In this document: piece by piece, positions 5,363 through 39,075 of the stretch
Layout of the letters: each line of letters begins with the position of its first letter
Numbering within the stretch: position 1 is the first letter of the stretch
From: a virus
Length of the DNA: 39,075 nt
Strand: one strand, 5' to 3'
IMG/VR virus record: IMGVR_UViG_3300044712_001007
Coordinates: 1-39,075 of that record
The notes under the pieces: generated by a model
The model's input: the letters and a program-made list of their open reading frames with translations, nothing else
What the model was told of the DNA's origin: nothing
Database searches by the model: none
Made by a program: the position numbers and the translations under genes

Positions 5363-5385
5363 AACCGTTGCCCAAACCGTTGCCA
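5363..5385 (+). repeat. Left integrase arm-type repeat
   Basis: A 23-bp sequence identical to 5581-5603, containing AACCGTTGCC twice in tandem (12-bp period). Position and duplication flanking the attP core suggest an integrase arm-binding site. Confidence 0.75.
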
Positions 5386-5482
5386 AACATACGGTTTAAT
5401 CAGTGTTGTTTAGATGTAACTCAATTACACATATTAATGAAGGAAAGTGATTTAAGTATACATAACATCACCTAGTCACTCT

Positions 5483-5527
5483 TTCGTAATGAACGGGCCG
5501 CAGGTTCGAGTCCTGTTATCGGCTCCA
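5483..5527 (+). other. attP: attP core: 3' half of a tRNA-Thr(CGU) gene
   Basis: The sequence reads as tRNA positions ~32-76: anticodon loop TTCGTAA (anticodon CGT), 3' anticodon strand TGAAC, variable loop GGGCC, T arm GCAGG-TTCGAGT-CCTGT, 3' acceptor strand TATCGGC, discriminator T and CCA. The 5' half is absent, so it is not a complete tRNA gene. This is the classic tyrosine-integrase arrangement in which the phage carries the 3' end of the target tRNA and restores it on integration. The exact crossover limits cannot be seen from this molecule alone. Confidence 0.85.
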
Positions 5528-5540
5528 AAAAACCCAGTGT

Positions 5541-5574
5541 AATCAACGGTTCGCGGAAACGTGGGCCGTTGATT
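5541..5574. repeat. Inverted repeat beside attP core
   Basis: AATCAACGG (5541-5549) pairs perfectly with CCGTTGATT (5566-5574), loop 16 nt. There is no U-tract, so a factor-binding or recombination-accessory site is as likely as a terminator. The CCGTTG element also matches the arm repeats. Confidence 0.5.
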
Positions 5575-5580
5575 ATTTGC

Positions 5581-5603
5581 AACCGTTGCCCAAACCGTTG
5601 CCA
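5581..5603 (+). repeat. Right integrase arm-type repeat
   Basis: Identical 23-bp copy of 5363-5385 in the same orientation, on the other side of the attP core and next to the integrase gene end. Confidence 0.75.
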
Positions 5604-5678: not shown

Positions 5679-6929
5679 CTATTTGGTAAATTTTTTCTCT
5701 AATTCTTTGAGCGATTCCCGGCGTTCAGTAGGGATAAAGTGGAAGTATGTGTTATAGGTCATAACTATAGAGCTATGCCCCAGGCGCTTGGAAACGTAGC
5801 TTATTTCTTCGCCGGCGGCCAGCAGGTGGCTGGCGTGGTTGTGCCGGAGAGAATGAAACCCAAAACGGGTTATGCCGATTTCCTTACAGAAATCCGGGAA
5901 CCAGGAGGAAATGCTGTCCGGGTGCATTTCTTGTCCATCATCACGGCAAAAAATCAGATTCTGCTTTTTAACATCGTATACCTTGGCTGCAAGCCCTTCT
6001 TTCTTTTCTTCGAGCTTCCGAATAATTTCATCCTGGTACGCTTTAACCTGGTGCAAAACATCGAGCACGCTGTCAACGACTTCGATTTTGCGCCTTTTTT
6101 TATTTGCGCCCCTTTTGGGGTTTTTAAGATCCTTGATCTCGTATCCCTTTTCTTTAGTGTGCACCAGGGCCTTTTTTACGAAGATGGTTTTATCCTCAAA
6201 GTTAATATTGTTCCAGGACAGGGCCAGCAGCTCCCCTCTGCGCAGACCGGTGTGAAGAGCGACATAGACCAGGGGGAAATACTTCTTGTGCCTTGCTTCG
6301 GCATGTTCTAACAGAGCTCTAATTTCGTCGTCGGTGAATACCTTGACCAGGCCCTCATCTTCATCAAAATCGGTTTCCGGCTCCGGGAGGTCTACCAGAT
6401 CTGCCGGATTCTCTTTTATTAACTTGTCCTTGATGGCATCTTCCAGGATGCGGTGTATAACCCTATGATGGTATAAAACCGTCTCCATGCCCACTTCACG
6501 GCGCACAGGCTTTTCTTGCTCCGCCTTGGAGTATACTTTTAAACTGCCGTCTATTAAGATGCGCTCATAAAAGCCGTTAAGATGGTGACGGGTTAGGGAG
6601 GATACTTTTATACTACCTATCCAGGGCACGATCCGGAGATTAATGCATTGCTTGTACCGTTGAAAAGTGGTCGAAGCCAATTTCTTGGCCGGCGTGGTTA
6701 ACAGCCATCGCTCAAAATACTCTTTGACCGTCGTCTGTGATGGACGGAGATAAGTACCGTTTTCCAGCTCTCCCAGGATTATTTTCATTTCACTTTCAGC
6801 CACAGTTATATCATCGGTTTTAACCGACTTAGCCCAGCGCCTGCGTTTATTGGTGGTTGGGTCTATACCTTCATCGATGACGATGGTATAACTGTCGTCG
6901 TATCGTTTCTCTATGTGGGCCTTGACCAT
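5679..6929 (-). CDS. int: Tyrosine-recombinase integrase
   Basis: 416 aa; ATG at 6929 preceded on the minus strand by GGAAAGGAG. Order: arm-binding AP2-like N-terminal region (residues 1-60), SAM-like core-binding domain (~65-170) and catalytic domain (~195-400). Catalytic residues visible are Arg230 (HTGLRRGELL), His359/Arg362 (HSLRHNH), His385 (RLGHSS) and the nucleophile Tyr395 (TYNTYFHF); a beta-hairpin lysine lies near residue 273. It joins attP to the tRNA-Thr target and, with an excisionase, reverses this. It ends next to attP. Length and motif order are typical for Firmicute temperate phages. Confidence 0.96.
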   Translation of the reverse strand: MVKAHIEKRYDDSYTIVIDEGIDPTTNKRRRWAKSVKTDDITVAESEMKIILGELENGTYLRPSQTTVKEYFERWLLTTPAKKLASTTFQRYKQCINLRIVPWIGSIKVSSLTRHHLNGFYERILIDGSLKVYSKAEQEKPVRREVGMETVLYHHRVIHRILEDAIKDKLIKENPADLVDLPEPETDFDEDEGLVKVFTDDEIRALLEHAEARHKKYFPLVYVALHTGLRRGELLALSWNNINFEDKTIFVKKALVHTKEKGYEIKDLKNPKRGANKKRRKIEVVDSVLDVLHQVKAYQDEIIRKLEEKKEGLAAKVYDVKKQNLIFCRDDGQEMHPDSISSWFPDFCKEIGITRFGFHSLRHNHASHLLAAGEEISYVSKRLGHSSIVMTYNTYFHFIPTERRESLKELEKKFTK

Positions 6930-10484: not shown

Positions 10485-11432
10485 ATGGAATTACAGGTAT
10501 TAACACACGTTCAGGAGTTCAGTTGGAACTTCGATGAAATCAAAACCAATGTGGCCGGCTTTGCGGAAAAATATCACGGCCTGGTTGTTACCGAAGAAAC
10601 CCTTCCGGATATGGAAAAGGCACAGAAGGAAATCGCTTCGGTTCGCGTTAAAATCGATGATTTTCGCAAGGAAATCAAAAAGCGCATGAATGAACCTTAT
10701 GAAAAATTTGAAACCCAAATCAAGGAACTTCAGGCGCTTATCGAGGCGGCGGAGACTCCGTTAAAAACGCAGATCCAGCACTATGAGGATATACGTGTCG
10801 TCAAGCGTGAAAACGAAATCAGGGAATACGCAAAAGAACGGGCAGAGGTTAAGGGCCTGCGGGAAGAAAGATTTGCTCAGTTTATAATCCTACCGGAATG
10901 GACCAGGCGATCAACCAAAGATACTACTTATCGCAAGGAAGTCAACAAAGCCATTGACCTGCTGATTGAGCAACAGAAAAATGCCGATGAAGCCGCTTTG
11001 CTCCGGAAACAGAAAAACGATTTAATCCAGCGCATGTGTGAAGTCTATTCGCGGGGACTTAAAACGCCGGTTACTCCGGAAGATGTGGCTCATGTAACAC
11101 ACGATGCAGCGCTGCCGGACATTCCGGAAATTGTGATGGCGGAATGTGATAAGCGCAGGGAAGTAGAAAACAAGGCCGCCATTGACTCTTGCGATACTAA
11201 TCCGGATGTTGGGCCATCACTGCCGCCGGTGTCGGTATTGCCATTACCGCCGATAAACCCGGCACTGGGTGGACCGCCCATACATCAGGACGTGTACGAT
11301 GTAGATCTAAGGCTGCCGGGGATAACAATTGCGCAGGCTAATGAAATTCTAGCATTTTTCGCCTCGCGCAATATAACTTACCAGGTGCTCCGGCAGACGA
11401 CAGCAGGAGGTGAGTTGTCTGATGTCTCCTGA
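10485..11432 (+). CDS. DUF1351-family protein
   Basis: 315 aa. Residues ~20-130 form a long charged coiled coil (MEKAQKEIASVRVKIDDFRKEIKKRMNEP and following), typical of DUF1351 proteins that sit upstream of recombination genes in Firmicute phages. Residues ~225-270 are a Pro-rich linker, and the last ~45 residues form a small folded end (GITIAQANEILAFFASRNI). It is followed by ERF and SSB, so a role with the annealing recombinase is likely but unproven. Confidence 0.75.
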   Translation: MELQVLTHVQEFSWNFDEIKTNVAGFAEKYHGLVVTEETLPDMEKAQKEIASVRVKIDDFRKEIKKRMNEPYEKFETQIKELQALIEAAETPLKTQIQHYEDIRVVKRENEIREYAKERAEVKGLREERFAQFIILPEWTRRSTKDTTYRKEVNKAIDLLIEQQKNADEAALLRKQKNDLIQRMCEVYSRGLKTPVTPEDVAHVTHDAALPDIPEIVMAECDKRREVENKAAIDSCDTNPDVGPSLPPVSVLPLPPINPALGGPPIHQDVYDVDLRLPGITIAQANEILAFFASRNITYQVLRQTTAGGELSDVS

Positions 11433-12096
11433 TATTCAGATGCTTCCGAAGTTTTCAGGAAAAACGATTATTTCCAAACTTTTCGAGCTGATGGGTAAAA
11501 TCACCTATATCCAAAAGGACGAAGAGAACAAGGAACAAAAGTACAAGTACCTCAGCTATGAAGCTGTTTCAGAGAAAATACAGGCCGCGCTGATTGAGTT
11601 AAAACTCATTGCCCTGCCGGAATTTGAAACCGTATCGGAAAAAGAGTATGCCACGGCCAAAGGTGCTCTTTGGAAATATATCCGTATGAAGTTGGTACTG
11701 CAAATCGTTGATGTAGAAACCGGAGAATTTTGTATCGCCGTTGGGGAAGGCAGCGGCGTGGATCCGGGAGACAAGGCTGTAGCCAAAGCCCAAACTATGG
11801 CCATGAAAAACCTTTGGTGCAAGCTTCTTAACGTCCCAATCGGTACGGATCCGGAAGCGGATCCGGCGACTGATCAACAGATATTTTCCCGGGTTTTAAG
11901 TTATGGGCTCCCCGCTTATGAGCAACATATCATGTGGTACTGGAACCAGGCAGGGTGGGATCTGCAGCAATTACCAGGATGGATACAAGCCCGGTTCAGC
12001 CGAACCCCGGATCAACTAACCCAGGAAGAGTGTTACCAAATCATGAACGAATTCGCGAGCTATGCTCAGCACAAACAAGGAGGACAAACTCAATGA
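11422..12096 (+). CDS. erf: ERF-family single-strand annealing protein
   Basis: 224 aa from ATG 11422, with GCAGGAGGTG upstream; a GTG at 11410 is too close to that site. ERF features are KITYIQKDEENKEQKYKYLSYEAVSEKIQ, ALIELKLIALPEF, and GEGSGVDPGDKAVAKAQTMAMKNLWCKLLNVPIG, the conserved core. It anneals complementary single strands in phage recombination and genome circularisation. DUF1351-ERF-SSB order is standard. Overlaps ssb by ATGA. Confidence 0.88.
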   Translation: MSPDIQMLPKFSGKTIISKLFELMGKITYIQKDEENKEQKYKYLSYEAVSEKIQAALIELKLIALPEFETVSEKEYATAKGALWKYIRMKLVLQIVDVETGEFCIAVGEGSGVDPGDKAVAKAQTMAMKNLWCKLLNVPIGTDPEADPATDQQIFSRVLSYGLPAYEQHIMWYWNQAGWDLQQLPGWIQARFSRTPDQLTQEECYQIMNEFASYAQHKQGGQTQ

Positions 12097-12785: not shown

Positions 12786-14216
12786 TTGTTCGAGCTTAGA
12801 CCATATCAAGAATTGCTTATAGACGGCAGCCGTCTCGAATTTCAGAACGGCAAGAATCGAACCTGTATTGTAGCTCCGTGCGGATCCGGCAAAACAGTGA
12901 TAATGGCATGGATGAGTTCAAAAGCCCGGTTAAACGGTGCCCGGACCATGTTCGTAGTACACAGGCAGGAACTAATCGATCAGTCCTCGGCAACCTTTGC
13001 TGCGTTGGGTGTGCCGCACGGGATTATCGCAGCCAAGTATCCGATAACACCTAATGAAACAATTCAAATCGGCAGCATACAGACCATCATCAGACGCCTG
13101 GACCGGATCAAGGAACCAAACATTATTATCCTGGACGAAGCACACCATGCTACAGCTGCTACGTGGCGCAAGCTGCTGGAAGCCTATCCGGAGGCCCTGG
13201 TCGTAGGACTAACAGCCACACCTGAGCGAATGGGCGGCCGGGGACTGGGAGACATCTTTGAATCATTGATCATGGGTCCTACAGTCAAAGACCTTATATC
13301 TCTTGGTAACTTATCACCGTTTAAATACTACGCACCACCGATAAAGGCAGACCTGGCGGATCTGAAAGTGGTTAAATACGGCGACTACGATCAAAAAGAA
13401 GTAGCCATGCGGATGGACAAGTCGGAAATTATCGGGGATCTGATTACCCAGTATAAACGGCTTGCTCCGGATGCCCGGGCGGTATGTTACTGCTCCAGCC
13501 TGGCTCATAGCCAACACACTGCCGAAATGTTTAGGCAAGCCGGAGTGTCGGCGCTGCATATAGACGGAGAGACGCACGATGTGGCCAGGAAAGCTGCTAT
13601 AAAAGATTTTAAGAATGGAGATATCAAGATCCTGTGCAATGTGGACCTGATCAGCGAGGGGTTTGATGTACCGGCCATGGAGGCCGTTATCCTGGCCAGG
13701 CCAACACATTCCCTGACGCTGTATATTCAGCAGGCGATGAGGGCAATGAGGCCGGATAAGGACAATCCGAACAAAGTATCTGTGATAATTGACCATGTAG
13801 GGAACCTATACCGGCATGGGCTGCCCGACGAAGACCGGGAATGGAGCTTGGAATCGAAAAAGAAAAAAACCGAAAAAAAAGAGTTTCCTATGAAGATCTG
13901 CCCGAAATGTTTCGGCGCCCACCGTCCGGCTCCGGTATGTCCGTACTGCCAGCATGTATATCCGCCCGCAGCAGGGAAAGCGGAACCGGAGCAGCGCGCC
14001 GGCGAGCTGGCCGAAGTTATTGAACTTGAAAAACGGCAGCGCAAAGAAGAGGTCCGGAAAGCCCGGAACGTGGTCACATTGGAGCAGATCGCCATACAGA
14101 GGGGATATTCCCCGCATTGGGTTAGGAAGATGTGTGAAGTTAAAAATATACCGTTTGGGGGAGTGAGTAACGGTGATGCCGGGAGAATTTATGCAAAAAA
14201 TGAGCTTACCATATGA
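12786..14216 (+). CDS. SF2 DEAH-type helicase with zinc-binding tail
   Basis: 476 aa from TTG 12786 after CAGGGAGGTAG. Motifs: Q-like FELRPYQ, Walker A APCGSGKT (30-37), DEAH (117-120), LTATPER (142-148), motif V region ILCNVDLISEGFDVPAM and motif VI QQAMRAMRP. A zinc-binding pair, CPKC and CPYC (~375-395), and a C-terminal helix-turn-helix-like piece (TLEQIAIQRGYSPHWVRKM) follow. It resembles the ComF/RAD25-like helicases of Firmicute phage replication modules, unwinding DNA with ATP. Neighbour to SSB and VRR-NUC. Confidence 0.92.
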   Translation: MFELRPYQELLIDGSRLEFQNGKNRTCIVAPCGSGKTVIMAWMSSKARLNGARTMFVVHRQELIDQSSATFAALGVPHGIIAAKYPITPNETIQIGSIQTIIRRLDRIKEPNIIILDEAHHATAATWRKLLEAYPEALVVGLTATPERMGGRGLGDIFESLIMGPTVKDLISLGNLSPFKYYAPPIKADLADLKVVKYGDYDQKEVAMRMDKSEIIGDLITQYKRLAPDARAVCYCSSLAHSQHTAEMFRQAGVSALHIDGETHDVARKAAIKDFKNGDIKILCNVDLISEGFDVPAMEAVILARPTHSLTLYIQQAMRAMRPDKDNPNKVSVIIDHVGNLYRHGLPDEDREWSLESKKKKTEKKEFPMKICPKCFGAHRPAPVCPYCQHVYPPAAGKAEPEQRAGELAEVIELEKRQRKEEVRKARNVVTLEQIAIQRGYSPHWVRKMCEVKNIPFGGVSNGDAGRIYAKNELTI

Positions 14217-15201
14217 GGCAAAAGTCAACCATGCCATAATCAGGGCTCGAGAGTTTTACCAAGAACTTAACGGAGATGTTGTCTGTAGCGTTGGCGGACT
14301 CGACAGTATTACACTATTAATTCTTTTACGGGCAGAAGTAGCCAAAGATATCCCCGGCGTGAGCGTTTCATCGCTGGAGGATAGAAGCATTCAACAAATT
14401 CATCAAACTTTTGATAACTTTGATATATTAAAGCCTCTGAAAACCAAGGTTCAGGTAATTAAAGACCATGGCTATCCCGTTTTATCAAAAGAAAAAGCCG
14501 GTAAGATCCAGATGCTTCAGAATCCGACTGAAAAGAACGCAATAGTCCGTCATGCGATTATGACTGGCGAAACTGGCAAATATGGCGGTTTCAGGACTAA
14601 AGAAACAGGTTCCCGGATGAGATTACCACAAAAATGGCTTAATTTATTTGGCGGCCCCGAAAATGAGAAATACGGCACCAATTATCAGGCGGCTCCATTT
14701 AAGGTATCTCCCGATTGCTGCTATTACATGAAAGAGCGGCCCTGTGATCTTTACATGAAAGAAACTGGGCGAAAGCCTTTTATGGGCTTAATGGCCAGTG
14801 AAGGAGGTCAGCGACGGTTTGCTCTTTTCAAACATGGTTGTAACTACTATGGGAAAACAGTAGTTCGCTCTTGCCCATTTGCTATATTTAACCGTCAAGA
14901 TCTGCTTCAACTGGCACTTGACCTAAAGGTGCCCGTGCCAGCCATTTATGGGACTATCGAACGGAAAGCGGACGGAACACTTTACACGACTCGGGCACAG
15001 CGAACCGGCTGCAGTATGTGTGGCTTTGGGATTCATTTTGAAAAGCGGCCTCACAGGTTTGATCGACTCCGAGAAGATAACCCCAAGGAATGGCGATTCT
15101 GGATGTATGACATGGGATGGGGTAAGGTATTGGACTATATAGGTGTAAAGTGGGAAAACGAAGTAAACGAAGAAGCCGACTTATTTAGCCAGGCAGTGTA
15201 A
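14176..15201 (+). CDS. PP-loop ATPase, PAPS-reductase/DndC-like family
   Basis: 341 aa from ATG 14176; ATG 14191 has better ribosome-site spacing (GGGAG). The PP-loop is VCSVGGLDSITLL near residues 37-50, the SGGxDS-type ATP-pyrophosphatase signature with Val in place of the usual spacing residue. Cysteines in PDCCYYMKERPC, VVRSCPF and GCSMCGFG could bind an Fe-S cluster, as in PAPS reductases and DndC. A role in sulfur chemistry or nucleic-acid modification is possible; no dnd partners are seen. It overlaps the helicase gene and precedes a nuclease. Confidence 0.82.
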   Translation: MPGEFMQKMSLPYEAKVNHAIIRAREFYQELNGDVVCSVGGLDSITLLILLRAEVAKDIPGVSVSSLEDRSIQQIHQTFDNFDILKPLKTKVQVIKDHGYPVLSKEKAGKIQMLQNPTEKNAIVRHAIMTGETGKYGGFRTKETGSRMRLPQKWLNLFGGPENEKYGTNYQAAPFKVSPDCCYYMKERPCDLYMKETGRKPFMGLMASEGGQRRFALFKHGCNYYGKTVVRSCPFAIFNRQDLLQLALDLKVPVPAIYGTIERKADGTLYTTRAQRTGCSMCGFGIHFEKRPHRFDRLREDNPKEWRFWMYDMGWGKVLDYIGVKWENEVNEEADLFSQAV

Positions 15202-15227: not shown

Positions 15228-15581
15228 TTGCAAGAACATGACATACAAAATGCTATCAGAATTGCGATTTCAGAGAATTACCTGGGGACTTGTTTTCGCG
15301 TAAATGTGGGGCAAGCATGGATCGGGGACAGAATAGAGCGCCATTCGGATGGATCAGTTACGATTTACAATGCTCGGCCTTTTAAAACCGGACTTCCCGA
15401 AGGTTTTAGTGATTTATTTGTCGTCCTTCATGGTGGACTAGCTGCTTTTTTGGAAGTGAAATCGGAGAAGGGCAGATCATCGCCAAACCAGTTACATTTT
15501 ATTACTCATATGCAGCAATTAGGTGCCAAGGCAGGTGTTGTGCGGTCAGTGAGTGACGCGCTGAAACTATTACGGAGTTGA
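15228..15581 (+). CDS. VRR-NUC-type nuclease
   Basis: 117 aa from TTG 15228 with GGGGTGGGGAG upstream. The PD-(D/E)xK pattern is PEGFSDLFVV (Asp62) then AAFLEVKSEKGR (Glu76, Lys78), followed by PNQLHFITHMQQLGAKAGVVRS, the stand-alone VRR-NUC fold found beside phage helicases. Likely a structure-specific endonuclease for replication or recombination intermediates. Confidence 0.9.
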   Translation: MQEHDIQNAIRIAISENYLGTCFRVNVGQAWIGDRIERHSDGSVTIYNARPFKTGLPEGFSDLFVVLHGGLAAFLEVKSEKGRSSPNQLHFITHMQQLGAKAGVVRSVSDALKLLRS

Positions 15582-15586
15582 CGCCA

Positions 15587-18547
15587 ATGGATGCAACGGA
15601 GTTCCTAAAAACAATATTCGAATATGCGGAAACCGGCTACACCTATTTATTTACGCTTCCGAACCAGCGAAGCTACAGCCTGCCGGTCACGGATCTGGAC
15701 GGCATACCGGCGATCATCGGTGCCAATATGCAGCAAAACATTTATTTTTCCCCGGGTATAAGCAATAAAAATAGTGATGCGCGCTGCGGCATCGATGACA
15801 TTGTCGGGATCACAGCTCTGTGGGTTGATATTGATATCTTTGACGCCGCGGCTCATGCCAAGGATAACCTGCCCCGGTCAGTAGAAGAAGCCATGGCTAT
15901 CCTGCCGGATCTGTCACCGTCCATAATCCTTCACAGCGGCTTTGGATTGCACTGCTGGTGGATTTTGAAAGAGGCCTGGTACTTTGATACTCCGGAGGAA
16001 AAGCAACAGGCTCAGCAGCTGCTCACAAACTTACAGTTGTACATCAGACAGCGGGCGGCGGAGCATGGCTGGCATTTGGATAATACATCAAACCTGGACC
16101 GGGTGATGCGCGTCCCTGGGACGTTAAACCATAAACATCAGCAGCCGGTATGGGCGCAGGTTATTGAACATTCAGAAGCCAGGTATAACCCTTCAGATAT
16201 TCAGGAAGTAATTCCGGAAAGGATAGACAGCGCCACAGCAAAACCCCGCCAGTCTGCCTTTGAGCGCAGGCCTACGGACGGACCGGCCGCCTATATGTTG
16301 CAGAATTGTATATTTATGCAGCATGTACAGATGGATGCTAAAGCCGTCTCTTACGGAGAATGGCTTGCAGCTCTTACGAATATTGTCCGGGCTACGGACG
16401 GAATCCAGGCAGCTCACGCGGTTTCGGCCATGGACCCGAACCGGTATAAACAAAAGGACTGTGACAAAAAAATTGATGAATGCCTGCTGCAGATGAATCC
16501 GCAGAACTGCCAATATATTCAGCAGCAGTTAGGTTTCCGGGGATGTCCGCCAGGTGGCTGCGGTATGGCAGCTCCCTGCGGGTGGTCCCTGGGAACATTA
16601 CCGCAGGCCCGGGCTCTGGTACGTTCCATTACAGTACCAAGTCCGGAAACAGTCTATCAGCCACAGGTACTTGGAGCCCTGGCCATACTCGAGAAGGAAG
16701 CGCCGGCGGAATATGATGTATTTTTTCAGAAGCTTTCCGGGCTCGTAAATAAAAATACTTTCCGAAAGGAACTGGCCAAACATAAGCGGGAGAAATCCGG
16801 CTTTACCGTCATCGATGGCGGAGGGCAACCATCGCAGCCGCCAGGTGATGGCCGGTGGTTGTCTCAGGCGGTGCCGGATGTCCCCTTGAATCTTAAATTG
16901 CCGGAATCAGGCTCGAATTATTCATCCTGGGTATTTAACCAATCAGGCATAAAACTCCGTAAAGTTACCGATCGAGGAGAATCGTACAGCGAAGCAGCTT
17001 ATGCGCCGGTAGTTATCAGTGAACGTATTTACAACATCGACAGCGGTAAAGAAAAAGCCCGGGTGGAGTTTAAAACGCATCGCGGGAAATGGCGCAGCGT
17101 AGTGCTGCCGAAATCAACTATTTTTGACGCCAAACAGATCATGTGCCTGGCCGATTCAGGCCTAACCCTAAACTCCGAAATGGCCAAAACCCTTACAAAA
17201 TGGTTGTCAGCCCTCGAGGCAGCTAACGCACAGATTATTCCGGAACGGGACGGCGTGGCAAAGCTTGGATGGAGAAACCACGAGGCGGAATTTATCCTGC
17301 CGGGGATCGATACGAAGTACACGCTAGATGTGGGGGATCCGGCATCGGAAACCGTTGTAGCCGGTTTCGGCATCGCGGGAGAATTCACCATATGGATGGA
17401 TGCCATGCGGCGACTTAGGACACGCAACAAGGCCCGGTTTATCATGGCTGCGGCATTTGCGGCACCACTTCTCAAGATTGTTGGCCAACGCACATTCCTG
17501 GTCCATAACTGGGGCGATACGGCGGACGGTAAAACAGCGGCCCTGTATGCGGCATTATCCGCGTGGGGAGATCCGGAGCAGCTGAAGCAAACATTTAACC
17601 AGACATCCACCTTCGTAGAGCGATCGGCGGAATTGTTCACGGACTTACCCTTGGGCATCAATGAATATGAAGTGCTTACCGAGCGTAAGAAAGGCGAAGT
17701 GGATCCCATTATCTATATGATCGGCGAAGGCAAGGGACGCGGTCGGGCCCGGAAGGAAGGCCTGCAGAAGACTGCCCAGTGGCGGACCATCGCCATCATG
17801 AACGGGGAGCAGCCTATCATCCGGAACAACAGCCGCGGCGGAGTAATAACCCGGGTGCTGGAGATCCAGGGCGGACCACTGGCCGACGATAAGAATTTTG
17901 CTTCAGATCTATACCGGATTACCGCCAGGCACCACGGCCACGCCGGCAAGCTGTATATTGAACACTTGCTGCAGTTTGATCATGAGGAGCTGCGGGATAT
18001 CTACCACAAAACACGGTATGCGCTGCGGGAGAAATACCCGGACAAAATCGAAGCACACCTGGACGCCATAGCCTGTATTGCCCTGGCTGATTTTCTGGTC
18101 AGTATGTGGATATTTAACCAGGACAAGGAAAGTGCGGGCCGTGATGCCATTACCATGGCGGACGGGATCCTGGCGGAGCTCATAGCCCGGACTGAGGCCG
18201 ACGAAGCGGAGCGCGCCTGGGCATGGCTGCAGGACTGGATCGCATCGAATGAAAATCGGTTTATGAAGCAATTCAGGGATCATAAAAGCGGGATCCCTGT
18301 TGTGGGGTATGTTGAAAACGAATTTATCTACATCATTAAAACGGAATTATCCAACGCCATGAAATCGGAAGGATACTCACCGGAAAAAACATTCCGGAGT
18401 TGGGCGGATCAAGATCGGATCCCTTGCAGTTCCTTAGGCGAAAAACGAACATTCGGCGTTAGGGGCAGAAGTATTAATGGTGTTAGGCCATATGTGATCC
18501 CTGTAAAAATCGTTGATGATGGAACGTTATTTAATGGCGAAGGTTAG
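15587..18547 (+). CDS. Primase-helicase (AEP-like plus DUF927)
   Basis: 986 aa from ATG 15587 (GGAG at 9 nt); a TTG at 15578 overlaps the nuclease stop. The N-terminal AEP/RepB-type primase shows WVDIDIF (~80), HSGFGLHCWWIL (~116) and DRVMRVPGTLNHK (~170). A Cys-rich middle (GCPPGGCGMAAPCGW, ~325-340) could bind metal. The C-terminal half is a DUF927-type helicase with variant Walker A WGDTADGKTAAL (~640-652), GINEYEV and a later VRGRS region. It is likely the main replication initiator-primase-helicase. The presumed origin iterons begin at its stop codon. Confidence 0.9.
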   Translation: MDATEFLKTIFEYAETGYTYLFTLPNQRSYSLPVTDLDGIPAIIGANMQQNIYFSPGISNKNSDARCGIDDIVGITALWVDIDIFDAAAHAKDNLPRSVEEAMAILPDLSPSIILHSGFGLHCWWILKEAWYFDTPEEKQQAQQLLTNLQLYIRQRAAEHGWHLDNTSNLDRVMRVPGTLNHKHQQPVWAQVIEHSEARYNPSDIQEVIPERIDSATAKPRQSAFERRPTDGPAAYMLQNCIFMQHVQMDAKAVSYGEWLAALTNIVRATDGIQAAHAVSAMDPNRYKQKDCDKKIDECLLQMNPQNCQYIQQQLGFRGCPPGGCGMAAPCGWSLGTLPQARALVRSITVPSPETVYQPQVLGALAILEKEAPAEYDVFFQKLSGLVNKNTFRKELAKHKREKSGFTVIDGGGQPSQPPGDGRWLSQAVPDVPLNLKLPESGSNYSSWVFNQSGIKLRKVTDRGESYSEAAYAPVVISERIYNIDSGKEKARVEFKTHRGKWRSVVLPKSTIFDAKQIMCLADSGLTLNSEMAKTLTKWLSALEAANAQIIPERDGVAKLGWRNHEAEFILPGIDTKYTLDVGDPASETVVAGFGIAGEFTIWMDAMRRLRTRNKARFIMAAAFAAPLLKIVGQRTFLVHNWGDTADGKTAALYAALSAWGDPEQLKQTFNQTSTFVERSAELFTDLPLGINEYEVLTERKKGEVDPIIYMIGEGKGRGRARKEGLQKTAQWRTIAIMNGEQPIIRNNSRGGVITRVLEIQGGPLADDKNFASDLYRITARHHGHAGKLYIEHLLQFDHEELRDIYHKTRYALREKYPDKIEAHLDAIACIALADFLVSMWIFNQDKESAGRDAITMADGILAELIARTEADEAERAWAWLQDWIASNENRFMKQFRDHKSGIPVVGYVENEFIYIIKTELSNAMKSEGYSPEKTFRSWADQDRIPCSSLGEKRTFGVRGRSINGVRPYVIPVKIVDDGTLFNGEG

Positions 18548-18667
18548 ACAAGTTAGACAAGGTTAGACAATGGTTAGACAGGCTTAAACCCTTGATAATA
18601 CTGGATATATAATAGTTGTCTAACTTGTCTAACTTTATAATACAGTTTCTAATAGAAAAAGGTATAC

Positions 18668-18690
18668 CCACCCTAATTACACTAGGGTGG
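18668..18690. repeat. Hairpin inside the iteron region
   Basis: CCACCCTA (18668-18675) pairs with TAGGGTGG (18683-18690), loop ATTACAC. It lies midway between the two iteron halves and could be a primase landing hairpin or a single-strand initiation site; no T-tract, so not a terminator. Confidence 0.55.
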
Positions 18691-18757
18691 TAGGTACATT
18701 AAAATATTGTGTTTTTTGGTTAGACAAGTTAGGAAGTTAGACAAACGCCGTTCAAAC

Positions 18758-18780
18758 CCTTATAGAATAAGGATTTTATT
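18758..18780 (+). terminator. Small hairpin with T-rich tail
   Basis: CCTTAT-AGA-ATAAGG followed by ATTTTATTT. The stem is short, so it is a weak terminator at best; it may instead mark an easily melted segment of the origin. Confidence 0.35.
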
Positions 18781-18833
18781 TGTCTAACCATTGTCTAACC
18801 TAAGACTAACTTCATGAAAGGAGTGAAATTATC

Positions 18834-21191: not shown

Positions 21192-21965
21192 ATGGCTAAG
21201 CAATATGAATTAGCCGAGCGTGATTATATCCTCGGCATGTCATATAAAGGGATTGCCGCAAAGTATAATGTTTCTGTTGAGACGGTGAGATCCTGGAAAA
21301 AGCGGCACGGATGGGAACGCGATAAACCAGTCCGGAAAACCGCACCCAGTGCACCCCAAAATAAAAAAGGGTGCACCCCTATAAAAGATGTGTGGCAAGA
21401 ACTTGAAGAAAGGCTGACCGATAAGGAGCAGCTTTTCTGTTATCACTTCATCCGGACGCGCAATGCAACGCAGGCAGCACTCGTGTCGGGCTACTCTCAA
21501 AACAAAGCCTGTGCCCAGGTCCAAGGCAGCCGGTTAATGCAGCGCCCGCGGGTTAAACAGGAAATCGATAGACTACGGGAGATATTTAGGCATGATCTAC
21601 AGATTGAGGCTATGGACGTGCTGCAGCAGTATGTGAATATTGCCTTTGCTGACATCGGTGATCTCCTTGAATTCAATACTTGTTCGGTAAAGCTGAATGA
21701 TTCTAAACTGTTGGATACGTCAATCATTTCCGAAGTAAAAGAGGGCAAAGAGGGTGTCAGTGTCAAACTGCACGACAAAATGAAAGCCCTGGAGAAACTG
21801 GAACTGTATTTCGATTTGCTGCCGGATAATTTCAAACGCCGGATCGAGGAAGAGAAGCTGAAACTGGAACATAAGAAAGTCGAAAACGCGAACCTGCAGC
21901 CCGCTGGCAATATCAATGTTGTGTTCAATATGCCGCGGCCGCCCAGGGGGAATCCGGATGTCTAA
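21192..21965 (+). CDS. terS: Terminase small subunit
   Basis: 257 aa; ATG 21192 directly follows an in-frame stop, with AGGTG just upstream. An N-terminal HTH (YILGMSYKGIAAKYNVSVETVRSWKKRHGW) is followed by the Terminase_2 core: LTDKEQLFCYHFI, NATQAALVSGYSQN, RLMQRPRVKQEIDRLR. It recognises phage DNA for packaging and hands it to TerL. It overlaps terL by 8 nt. Confidence 0.93.
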   Translation: MAKQYELAERDYILGMSYKGIAAKYNVSVETVRSWKKRHGWERDKPVRKTAPSAPQNKKGCTPIKDVWQELEERLTDKEQLFCYHFIRTRNATQAALVSGYSQNKACAQVQGSRLMQRPRVKQEIDRLREIFRHDLQIEAMDVLQQYVNIAFADIGDLLEFNTCSVKLNDSKLLDTSIISEVKEGKEGVSVKLHDKMKALEKLELYFDLLPDNFKRRIEEEKLKLEHKKVENANLQPAGNINVVFNMPRPPRGNPDV

Positions 21966-23358
21966 CATTGTGATTCCGAGAATTGATATAAGCATCCCTT
22001 ATGATCCTAATCCTAAGCAGTGGATCTTCCATGCCATAGAAGCGGAAGAGGCCGTTTATGGAGGCGCTAAAGGTGGCGGCAAGTCCAAGGCGTTGGTGAT
22101 GGATGCCACGGCATACGGGTTTGAATTCCCGGGCGCCGTAATAGGATTATTCCGCGAAAGCTATCCTAACCTGGAAGCTAACCTGATCCGAGAGTTTAAG
22201 AAGAGCATTCCTAAGGAATTGTATAGATACAACGAATCAAAGCACATGGCAACATTGATAAATGGCAGCCTGGTGCTTTTTCGATACGTAAAAAATGAAA
22301 AGGACGCCGAGACATACCAAGGCCAGGAATTTGATTATATCGGCGTAGATGAGCTGACCAAACACACAAAGCGAACTATCCAGCTGCTGTTATCATGCTT
22401 ACGGTCCGCCAAAGGTTTCCCCCCGTGTTTTCGTGGCAGCTGTAACCCTGGCGGGCGTGGTCACGGCCATGTGAAGCAGGATTATGTTTTAGCCACTGAA
22501 TATGGTAAAAAGATTGTTATTGATCCGGTAACGGGGAACAGACGCGCTTTTATCCCCGCCCAAGTGTATGATAACCATGTCCTGATGAAGTTTGACCCTG
22601 CGTATGCCAGGCGCTTAGAGAATCTTCCCGAGCAGGAGCGTAAAGCTTTCCTGGAAGGCAATTGGGATGTGTTTATTGGTCAGGTGTTCAGCGAGTGGAA
22701 TCACGATATCCATGTAATTGAGCCTTTTGAAATACCCCGGGAATGGATCCGCTTCAGGGCCATGGACTGGGGTTTTGCTAAGCCATACAGTATCCACTGG
22801 TATGCCGTTGATTATGATGGCAATATATACGTGTATCGCGAGTTATACGGCATGAAGGAAGGGCAAGCCGATGTAGGCACAGAGGAAGATCCGACGCAGG
22901 TTGCCAAGAAGGTTTTAAAAGCGGAAGCGGGCGAGGATATCACCTACGGTATTGCCGATCCCGCCTGCTGGCAAGATGATAAGCGGATCAAGTGGGCCAA
23001 CGGCGGAGAGACGGTGGCGGAGACTTTCGCGAATGAAGGTGTATTTTGGAACCCGGCGGATAACAGCCGCCTGCAGGGTAAGATGCAAGTTCATAAGCGG
23101 CTGCGCGGCGCGGGTAAAGGCAAGCCCGCTATTAAAGTGTTTAGTAACTGCGTACACCTAATTAGGACGCTTCCGGAGCTTTGTTACGATGAAAACAAGC
23201 CTGAGGACGTTGACACTGATATGGAAGACCATGCCTACGATGAGCTGCGTTATGCGCTCATGAGTAGACCATACAAGCCGGAACACGAGAAAGAACAGCC
23301 AAAAGAAGATTACGGCCAGCGCCGACGCAAGCAAACAGTTACGGGCTGGAGTGCATAG
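21958..23358 (+). CDS. terL: Terminase large subunit
   Basis: 466 aa from ATG 21958, with GGGGGAATCC upstream. ATPase: Walker A YGGAKGGGKS (34-43), Walker B DYIGVDELT with Asp131/Glu132. Nuclease: MDWGF (Asp270), ADPAC (Asp334) and DMEDHAYDELRYAL (Asp424/Asp428), the three acidic sites of RNase-H-like terminase nucleases. It translocates and cuts DNA at the portal. Terminase_6-type length. Confidence 0.95.
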   Translation: MSNIVIPRIDISIPYDPNPKQWIFHAIEAEEAVYGGAKGGGKSKALVMDATAYGFEFPGAVIGLFRESYPNLEANLIREFKKSIPKELYRYNESKHMATLINGSLVLFRYVKNEKDAETYQGQEFDYIGVDELTKHTKRTIQLLLSCLRSAKGFPPCFRGSCNPGGRGHGHVKQDYVLATEYGKKIVIDPVTGNRRAFIPAQVYDNHVLMKFDPAYARRLENLPEQERKAFLEGNWDVFIGQVFSEWNHDIHVIEPFEIPREWIRFRAMDWGFAKPYSIHWYAVDYDGNIYVYRELYGMKEGQADVGTEEDPTQVAKKVLKAEAGEDITYGIADPACWQDDKRIKWANGGETVAETFANEGVFWNPADNSRLQGKMQVHKRLRGAGKGKPAIKVFSNCVHLIRTLPELCYDENKPEDVDTDMEDHAYDELRYALMSRPYKPEHEKEQPKEDYGQRRRKQTVTGWSA

Positions 23359-37267: not shown

Positions 37268-39075
37268 ATGATGCCGAGTGCAGACGATTTATTTAACCAA
37301 ATACAACCGCGATCAGCACAGGCGCTATTTGACGCCATTCCCGATCAAAACAGCGCTGCCGGTAACACCGGCGATTGGTGGGGCAAAACAAAACAGGTGG
37401 CTGCCGGACTTGTTCCCGGCGGTTATTTTTTAACCGAACCTGGGCGAAAATTCGTTTCCGATGCCGCGGCCGCCGTGGGTGATTATGTAGTTGGAGCGTA
37501 CCAGGGCGGAAAAGAAATGATGCGCACTGAGCAGGATGCCAGAAATATGATGGACAGGGACGGAAACTTACTCCCGGGATATACGCAGGAACAGTTAGAA
37601 GCTGCTTTAGGACAGCAAGATAAGGCGCTTACTGCTTTTACTGCTGAAACCCTTGAACCTACCGCCATGATCGCAGGGGCCGCCGTCATGCCTAAAGCAG
37701 CAATCCCCGCCATGATTGGGGAGCAAGCGTTAGAGGGATATCGAAGCGTCGAGGGTACGCCGCTACAAAAAGCCGGTAACGCAATTAGGCAGGCGACTTA
37801 TGGTCCGTTGGTGGATATCGCAAACGATCCCGAAGTCAAGGAAAGATTCGAAGCAAATCCTGCACGGATGGCGACAAATACCACGTTAGCCGGGTTGCAA
37901 GTCCTTTACCCCGTGGAACGGGCGGTAGCTGGGGCAAAAGGCGCTAAAAGGTGGGGCGATTCGAAAACAACGGAGCTTAACCGTGAATTATCCGAGCCCT
38001 GGGAGCCGTTTCAGACACATGAGAACGTAGGCACACGGGATCCGGGAGCGCAGGAGGTAAACGTCGATTTCTTTAACGATGGGCGGAATACCATGACGGC
38101 GGATCCGCGCCGGGGGACGCGAGTAAATCAGCAGGAAGAAGTCCCTATTACCTTTGATGAACAGGGCAGGCCTGACAGTATCACATTAGATGGTGTCCAG
38201 TATGTAAGAAAAAACCCATCCGGAGAATTCGGTAATGTATTTTCTGATAAAACAGCGGATCAGATTTTTAACGAAATTCCGGAGCGGACGCAAAATAGAA
38301 AATCTGTACAGTCACAGGTAAATTTATCCGATTGGTTAACCGGATCCACTGAGGGTTTAGAGACTACCTTTGTTGACCGGCTTGCAAAGTTAGCCCAGGA
38401 CAAAGGGGAACCCCTAGGAGTGACTTCTGGGTTTAGATCAATCGAAGAACAACAGGCACTATGGGAAGCATCCGATAAATCCGGAAAATGGGTAGCAGAG
38501 CCGGGGAAAAGCCGTCATAACGTTGGTTTTGCTGTTGATACTGATTTGGTACGCAACATGTCCAATGAGGATTTGGCACCGTATGGCTTGTATAAGCCCA
38601 TGGATTACGAGCCCTGGCATGTGGAGCCGATAGAAACAAAAGGACGCAGCACGGCGGAATTAGGAGGAACGAAGCTTAATGAATCCTCCCCTAGACGCAT
38701 TGAAGCTGAAGAATCCGCGCCGATGGGAGAGGTTATCGATCTGGATCAGCGGCGGCAGGAAGCCTGGAATGCGGGAGATCTAAACGCTGTTGCAGACACA
38801 TTCCCCGACTCTCCGTTAGTTGCTAACGCCTTGCGTGAGCGTGCTGCGGGAATGGATAACGAAGCATTAATAGATAACCGTTCATCTGAACAAGGTGGGC
38901 GGTTTTCTACTGGCCAGGAAACGACGATTCCATATTACAAGAATCTCGAAAAATCTCCCAATATGCGAAAGCAGGGTGATCCTTATGCCCAAGGTATCGA
39001 GCCAAAAGGTGAATACATTGGGCATGATTCCATTTCCGACCGGCGAAGCAATGAAAGTTATCGACCACCGAATTT
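37268..39075 (+). CDS. Giant polyvalent virion protein, N-terminal part (continues at base 1)
   Basis: This reading frame has no stop before the right edge and continues in frame at base 1, ending at 3266; full length about 1,683 aa. It starts at ATG ATG after GGGGTGGT, 9 nt after the preceding stop. The first ~250 residues contain Ala/Gly-rich, possibly membrane-interacting stretches. Around residues 370-455 is an M15-type D,D-/L,D-peptidase domain: TSGFRS, then SRHNVGFAVD (His417, Asp424) and EPWHVE (Glu448, His451), the zinc and catalytic pattern of VanY-like enzymes. It probably cuts peptidoglycan cross-links during DNA entry. Next comes a segment that runs across the junction into a probable ADP-ribosyltransferase fold. 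It is the last gene of the virion block, where T7-like phages encode large ejected internal proteins. The M15 call is strong; the virion role is inferred from position and size. Confidence 0.85.
   Translation, partial: MMPSADDLFNQIQPRSAQALFDAIPDQNSAAGNTGDWWGKTKQVAAGLVPGGYFLTEPGRKFVSDAAAAVGDYVVGAYQGGKEMMRTEQDARNMMDRDGNLLPGYTQEQLEAALGQQDKALTAFTAETLEPTAMIAGAAVMPKAAIPAMIGEQALEGYRSVEGTPLQKAGNAIRQATYGPLVDIANDPEVKERFEANPARMATNTTLAGLQVLYPVERAVAGAKGAKRWGDSKTTELNRELSEPWEPFQTHENVGTRDPGAQEVNVDFFNDGRNTMTADPRRGTRVNQQEEVPITFDEQGRPDSITLDGVQYVRKNPSGEFGNVFSDKTADQIFNEIPERTQNRKSVQSQVNLSDWLTGSTEGLETTFVDRLAKLAQDKGEPLGVTSGFRSIEEQQALWEASDKSGKWVAEPGKSRHNVGFAVDTDLVRNMSNEDLAPYGLYKPMDYEPWHVEPIETKGRSTAELGGTKLNESSPRRIEAEESAPMGEVIDLDQRRQEAWNAGDLNAVADTFPDSPLVANALRERAAGMDNEALIDNRSSEQGGRFSTGQETTIPYYKNLEKSPNMRKQGDPYAQGIEPKGEYIGHDSISDRRSNESYRPPN
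39054..39075. repeat. Right copy of 22-bp terminal redundancy
   Basis: Identical to bases 1-22. Removing one copy gives a 39,053-bp circle in which the polyvalent gene is intact. Confidence 0.9.

Follow-up and report, generated by a model that had tools for sequence, protein, structure and literature searches.

The stretch of DNA analysed here (the window, 39,075 bp) comprises a whole virus record, whose first and last 22 bp are identical (positions 1-22 and 39054-39075). Because of these identical ends, the record is probably circular, with a length of 39,053 bp once closed, and the ORFs at its two ends then join in a single frame of 1,686 codons. Terminase subunits are encoded at 21192-23358, followed by a row of long ORFs, and since these subunits are present we regard the window as a phage and not as a PICI satellite. 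An integrase gene (5679-6929, minus strand) lies beside an attP-like region (5363-5603) in which the 23-bp sequence AACCGTTGCCCAAACCGTTGCCA is directly repeated, at 5363 and 5581. Between the two copies, at about 5499-5527, the DNA resembles the 3′ end of a tRNA gene (GCAGGTTCGAGTCCTGTTATCGGCTCCA), which suggests that the phage integrates into a tRNA gene. Within the replication module, a gene for a 342-aa phosphoadenosine phosphosulfate reductase-like protein (14173-15201) sits between those for a DNA helicase and a VRR-NUC nuclease.

The feature under study is a cluster of short repeats at the end of the gene encoding a 989-aa primase-helicase, hereafter Rep (Table 1). A sequence-only reading had described nine exact copies and one near-exact copy of a 9-mer within 257 bp, ordered as four forward, two reverse, a hairpin, two forward and two reverse. 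The copies of GTTAGACAA, which span 18543-18799, bear out both the count and the block order. The same reading had placed the start of the cluster on the stop codon of the primase-helicase gene, and indeed the putative origin lies directly 3′ of rep, its first iteron overlapping the TAG at 18545-18547. Few if any copies had been expected elsewhere, and the nine exact copies are the only ones in the 39,075-bp record. When one mismatch was allowed, 16 matches were found in the record versus 6.5 expected, a number reached by none of 100 shuffled sequences. The copies form two sets flanking an AT-rich segment, and if both degenerate copies are included, set 2 would total six sites, the same as set 1. 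The hairpin between the sets was considered as a conserved element and rejected, as it is not general among relatives. GC skew, a check suggested by the sequence-only reading, showed no switch at 18.5 kb in this genome and is uninformative as evidence, and a DNA-level search of the phages collection with the origin region returned no match.

Table 1. Features of the rep gene and of the repeat region that follows it (window coordinates)
Feature	Position	Strand or copies	Remarks
rep, 989-aa primase-helicase initiator, TTG start	15578..18547	+	Pfam, PHROG, profile, fold
HTH_56 winged helix, putative iteron-binding domain	18200..18499	+	Pfam; predicted helices/wing; covariation
R964 codon	18467-18469	+	within HTH_56
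Iteron set 1, GTTAGACAA x4 (+), x2 (-)	18543..18633	(+) 18543, 18552, 18562, 18573; (-) 18616, 18625	exact, except one mismatch at 18573
Conserved core, spacer of set 1, ATATCCAGTATTATCAAGGGTTT	18586..18608	-	second-best matrix match in window
AT-rich segment between sets, putative melting region	18634..18718		71% AT vs 52% in the genome
Hairpin CCACCCTAATTACACTAGGGTGG, 8-bp stem, inside AT-rich segment	18668..18690		not kept in most relatives
Iteron set 2, GTTAGACAA x2 (+), x2 (-)	18719..18799	(+) 18719, 18736; (-) 18780, 18791	all exact
Degenerate iteron GTTAGGAAG, set 2	18728..18736	+	3 mismatches
Conserved core, spacer of set 2, AAACCCTTATAGAATAAGGATTT	18754..18776	+	third-best matrix match in window
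Degenerate iteron GTTAGTCTT, set 2	18802..18810	-	3 mismatches

Rep itself combines several recognizable parts. It matches PHROG 8841 (DNA primase/helicase) at 3e-123, with a DUF927 AAA+ helicase at aa 454-734 (Pfam, 6e-49) and a C-terminal HTH_56 domain, the "Cch helix turn helix", at aa 875-974 (Pfam, 7e-11). The N-terminal third resembles phage and plasmid primases: aa 41-210 match the primase family PHROG 2478, and a P4-family primase encoded on a Parageobacillus plasmid can be aligned with aa 6-319 (2e-32). A profile built from eight homologues found the PDB entries 8tch (SaPIbov1 Rep, 5e-60) and 5dgk (SCCmec Cch, 6e-34), and the same two entries were the best fold matches of an AlphaFold2 model of aa 440-989, made from a 28-sequence alignment (pLDDT 85.6). 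A single-sequence structure of the N-terminal 440 aa reached a pLDDT of 41 and was unusable. Judged by sequence and predicted fold, Rep of the window is thus homologous to SaPIbov1 Rep and SCCmec Cch; against the NCBIfam Cch1 model (NF047345) it scored 38.6 bits, far below the cut-off of 700.

Given this homology, we compared the locus with the known systems. In SaPIs and PICIs, iterons start directly 3′ of rep, two sets flank an AT-rich region, and recognition is assigned to the C-terminal domain of Rep (PMC7581432, PMC6092414). The window shows the same features, i.e., a C-terminal DNA-binding domain, iterons 3′ of rep and two sets around AT-rich DNA, and the likeness to SaPIbov1 extends to the Rep profile and fold matches, the SaPI origin being compared by its description in the literature. 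Unlike a PICI, the window is a complete genome of a temperate phage (about 39 kb) that encodes a terminase and structural proteins of its own. Its primase-like region precedes the helicase in one protein, whereas in PICIs a fusion of pri and rep is seen in some cases only. Moreover, the window's sites converge on a conserved core within each set, which we did not find described. Cch and Cch2 of SCCmec likewise join a DUF927 AAA+ helicase to a C-terminal DNA-binding domain, and this domain, when isolated, binds repeats downstream of the gene (eLife 2020). Cch2 differs from the window in that its origin has three short iterons, packed into 23 bp, and its primase, CCPol-MP, is a separate protein. 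Theta iteron plasmids (RepA/pi) and lambda ori (O) also place short initiator sites beside an AT-rich region. Their initiators are non-helicase proteins that bring in a DnaB-type helicase of the host, whereas the initiator of the window is itself an AAA+ helicase; we found no sequence relation between them, and the replication-region proteins scanned gave no match to the RepA, pi or O families.

Closer counterparts were found in two phages, Thermoanaerobacterium phage THSA-485A and Faecalibacterium phage FP_Epona. Both encode a DUF927 plus HTH_56 protein, about 33-35% identical to Rep of the window over the helicase part, and both carry two mirrored sets of iterons directly after this gene. 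They differ from the window in their iterons, GGTAACCGA and TAGGTGAAAC, and in the N-terminal part of the protein, which does not align and in THSA-485A is annotated with a CHC2 zinc finger. The stretches inspected in these two phages carry no origin annotation.

To survey the family, we collected Rep homologues with their downstream DNA from viral contigs and phage records, with subset alignments A2 and A3; a search of the viral_contigs collection with the window Rep alone returned no relatives. Over-represented 8-mers were then sought de novo in a region that starts 60 nt upstream of the rep stop and ends 450 nt downstream of it. Significant repeats (p <= 0.02) directly follow rep in 68 of 90 loci, and five or more iteron copies were present after rep in 61 of the 90, versus 5 of 1,209 control stretches from the same loci, two of these five (L100 and L103) being displaced arrays. 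No significant iteron was detected directly after rep in the remaining 22 relatives. Five loci (L091, L100, L102, L103 and L106) have their array displaced downstream of rep by about 1.6-2.7 kb, and in others no array was found.

The iteron words differ among loci (GTTAGACA, GGTAACCG, AGGTGAAA, AGGCGTAA, GTGGGAAC, GTTGTAAG and others), as does the orientation of sites, and a recurrent plan is evident: a convergent group of sites is followed, 76-123 bp away from start to start, by a second convergent group. Within a set of the relatives, the convergent arms are 40-66 bp apart, and set 1 holds six sites in 18 of 32 loci. In the relatives, the DNA between the sets has an AT content of 72%, compared with 59% for the set spacers and 54% for the end of rep. 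A pair of mirrored iteron sets is common in the DUF927/HTH_56 helicase family, and the view of the sequence-only reading that the bidirectional layout is uncommon is not supported. Searching for pairs of GTTAGACAA elsewhere (22 viral and 16 genome contigs) gave mostly stretches without a Rep homologue, at least within the part fetched; these pairs, for example inverted repeats of Bacteroides, look coincidental or unrelated and were set aside. In three loci (L013, L027 and L044), by contrast, the array adjoins a gene for a Rep homologue. One of them, L013, holds two GTTAGACA clusters (1-210 and 11360-11650) about 11.5 kb apart, one of them beside the Rep C-terminus; the second cluster is possibly a second origin or a copy.

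This conservation bears on the idea that the repeats are of another kind altogether, i.e., integrase or att-like arm sites, a CRISPR-like array or chance repeats. Integrase arm sites do include short repeats in both orientations, and repeats of that type are present at 5363-5603 of this phage. Yet the integrase and the attP-like region are 13 kb away, the GTTAGACAA copies mostly lie 9-11 bp apart without any spacer-array structure, their number is far above chance, and arrays are kept beside rep. Already contradicted by position and by family-wide conservation, this explanation is hardly credible.

The spacers between the convergent arms contain a further conserved element. TCAAGG/CCTTGA is enriched there (17 occurrences vs 1.0 in shuffles), and a dyad AAANCC...GGNTTT is present in 16 of 62 spacers versus 0.15 in shuffles, with no enrichment in the DNA between the sets. 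Because these core patterns were picked after inspecting the spacers, a core matrix was trained without the window. With this matrix, 53 of 62 spacers scored at p <= 0.02 versus shuffles, most of them having been in the training set, and the two origin spacers of the window, which were outside it, scored 17.1 and 15.9, the second- and third-best matches in the window. The best (5530-5552, AAACCCAGTGTAATCAACGGTTC, score 18.9) lies directly after the tRNA-like stretch and may be due to chance. Among 22 related phage records, the core consensus occurs nine times at <=3 mismatches, and the positions that were compared with locus ranges all fall in the origin. Two loci carry two near-identical cores, 165 bp apart in L103 and 161 bp apart in L100, so that the two iteron sets look like an old duplication. 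Candidate roles for the core are a contact with the helicase ring or a priming site.

The arrangement was also found on plasmids. The circular, 13-kb plasmid pSJEF4-2-2 of Geobacillus stearothermophilus has TGTCACAACG iterons directly after its DUF927 gene, in two groups around a very AT-rich stretch and with core-like spacers (AAAACCTTGATATATCAACGTTT). It differs from the window in having a separate CHC2 primase gene and a first group all in one orientation (set 1 has direct repeats on either side). Because no small plasmid can do without an origin, this array supports an origin function. A Eubacterium plasmid of 40 kb is organized similarly, its repeat word being AGTTCCC.

In order to relate the iteron word to the protein, we compared iteron similarity with HTH_56 identity across 45 dereplicated loci. 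The two are correlated (rho 0.52), and when identity of the helicase core was controlled for, a partial correlation of 0.25 remained (permutation p = 0.002), while the reverse comparison, core identity with HTH_56 controlled for, gave -0.07. Iterons thus covary with HTH_56 beyond the helicase core. Mutual information was then run over all Rep columns versus the iteron positions. Most of the top pairs were ancestry outliers at iteron position 3, and the HTH share of the top 40 pairs was not raised (0.125 vs 0.146). Inside HTH_56, only the pair of iteron position 10 and residue 964 stood out: in the register TAGGTGTAA followed by C or G, R or K at residue 964 goes with C as the last base, and W or Y with G (24 C with R, 2 C with K, 23 G with W, 1 G with Y and 2 A with W). 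On the helicase-core tree, residue and base undergo five changes each, always together, with three of these events on well-supported branches; as there are fewer than six independent pairs, a sign test cannot reach significance. Outside this analysis, L065, L091, L048, L122 and L126-L128 fit the rule, L102 and L103 pair F with G, and L075, with W and C, is the one clear exception. The window obeys the rule, with R964 and an iteron ending in ...TCTAAC, and in the AlphaFold2 model this residue (525 of the model) lies between the strands after the last HTH helix, i.e., in the wing. The pair was the top of many tested, and a contact between residue 964 and this iteron base is to be read as a strong candidate, short of proof.

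The covariation also bears on what binds the repeats. The sequence-only reading had named either the primase-helicase or the 230-aa product of the next gene as the possible binder, and the evidence favors the former, as HTH_56 covaries with the iteron and the 230-aa protein has no family match. One could still suppose that the 230-aa product or a host protein is the initiator and that the primase-helicase is recruited second, given that the 230-aa gene is directly downstream and of unknown family. This is improbable: the 230-aa protein has no relatives in viral_contigs and no match to a DNA-binding family, whereas the array follows rep in many loci and covaries with the HTH_56 domain of Rep. 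A similarly small chance attaches to an operator array, in which a transcriptional regulator, for example a phage repressor or Rep acting on its own expression, would bind the repeats and control the 230-aa gene and the genes downstream. The repeats are indeed intergenic, 5′ of the next gene and overlapped by promoter-like hexamers, and initiators bound to iterons often autoregulate. However, the repeats come after rep, not before it, and adjoin it in many relatives, the iteron tracks the HTH_56 of Rep, the promoter-like matches are at about shuffle level (3 vs 1.6, sd 1.4), and a comparable array is present on a small plasmid that encodes a DUF927 Rep.

Taken together, these computations establish the family and fold of Rep, the number and placement of the iterons, the AT content, the two-set plan and the covariation. 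The proposal of the sequence-only reading that this is an origin is supported by the Rep family, by position, conservation and covariation, and by the plasmid with a similar arrangement. We consider it very probable that a temperate phage starts its replication here, at an origin of the SaPI-Rep/Cch type with Rep loaded on two sets of sites.

By analogy with the work on SaPI and Cch, from which we infer binding, stoichiometry, melting site and direction, initiation at this origin would proceed as follows. Rep would act as the initiator and as a self-loading AAA+ helicase joined to its own primase. The C-terminal winged helix of Rep (HTH_56) would recognize GTTAGACAA, and Rep would assemble on the two sets, one of six clear sites and the other of four clear and two degenerate ones, probably as two hexamers, one on each set. 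The AT-rich segment between the sets would then melt, the two helicases could load as a pair, presumably for bidirectional replication, and the fused N-terminal primase domain would start DNA synthesis.

The pri-rep-ori organization was described by the PICI authors as exclusive to PICIs, yet the two-set rep-ori organization occurs in complete phages and on a plasmid. In the present data it occurs on a small plasmid and in dozens of phage contigs, which keep the plan but differ in the iteron word. This provides a sequence rule for locating origins in phages with DUF927 helicases, a conserved core element and a candidate specificity contact that involves one residue and can be tested. A broader proposal, which we hold to be evenly balanced, is that of a widespread DUF927/HTH_56 replicon family of phages and plasmids with exchangeable addresses, in which a conserved chassis (two sets of about six sites, cores and a melting region) is retained and the iteron word is rewritten together with HTH_56, residue 964 specifying one base (R/K for C, an aromatic residue for G). 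If this is true, replicon specificity would be predictable from sequence, and there would be a hint as to how phages, satellites and plasmids that share a cell evade or make use of one another's initiators.
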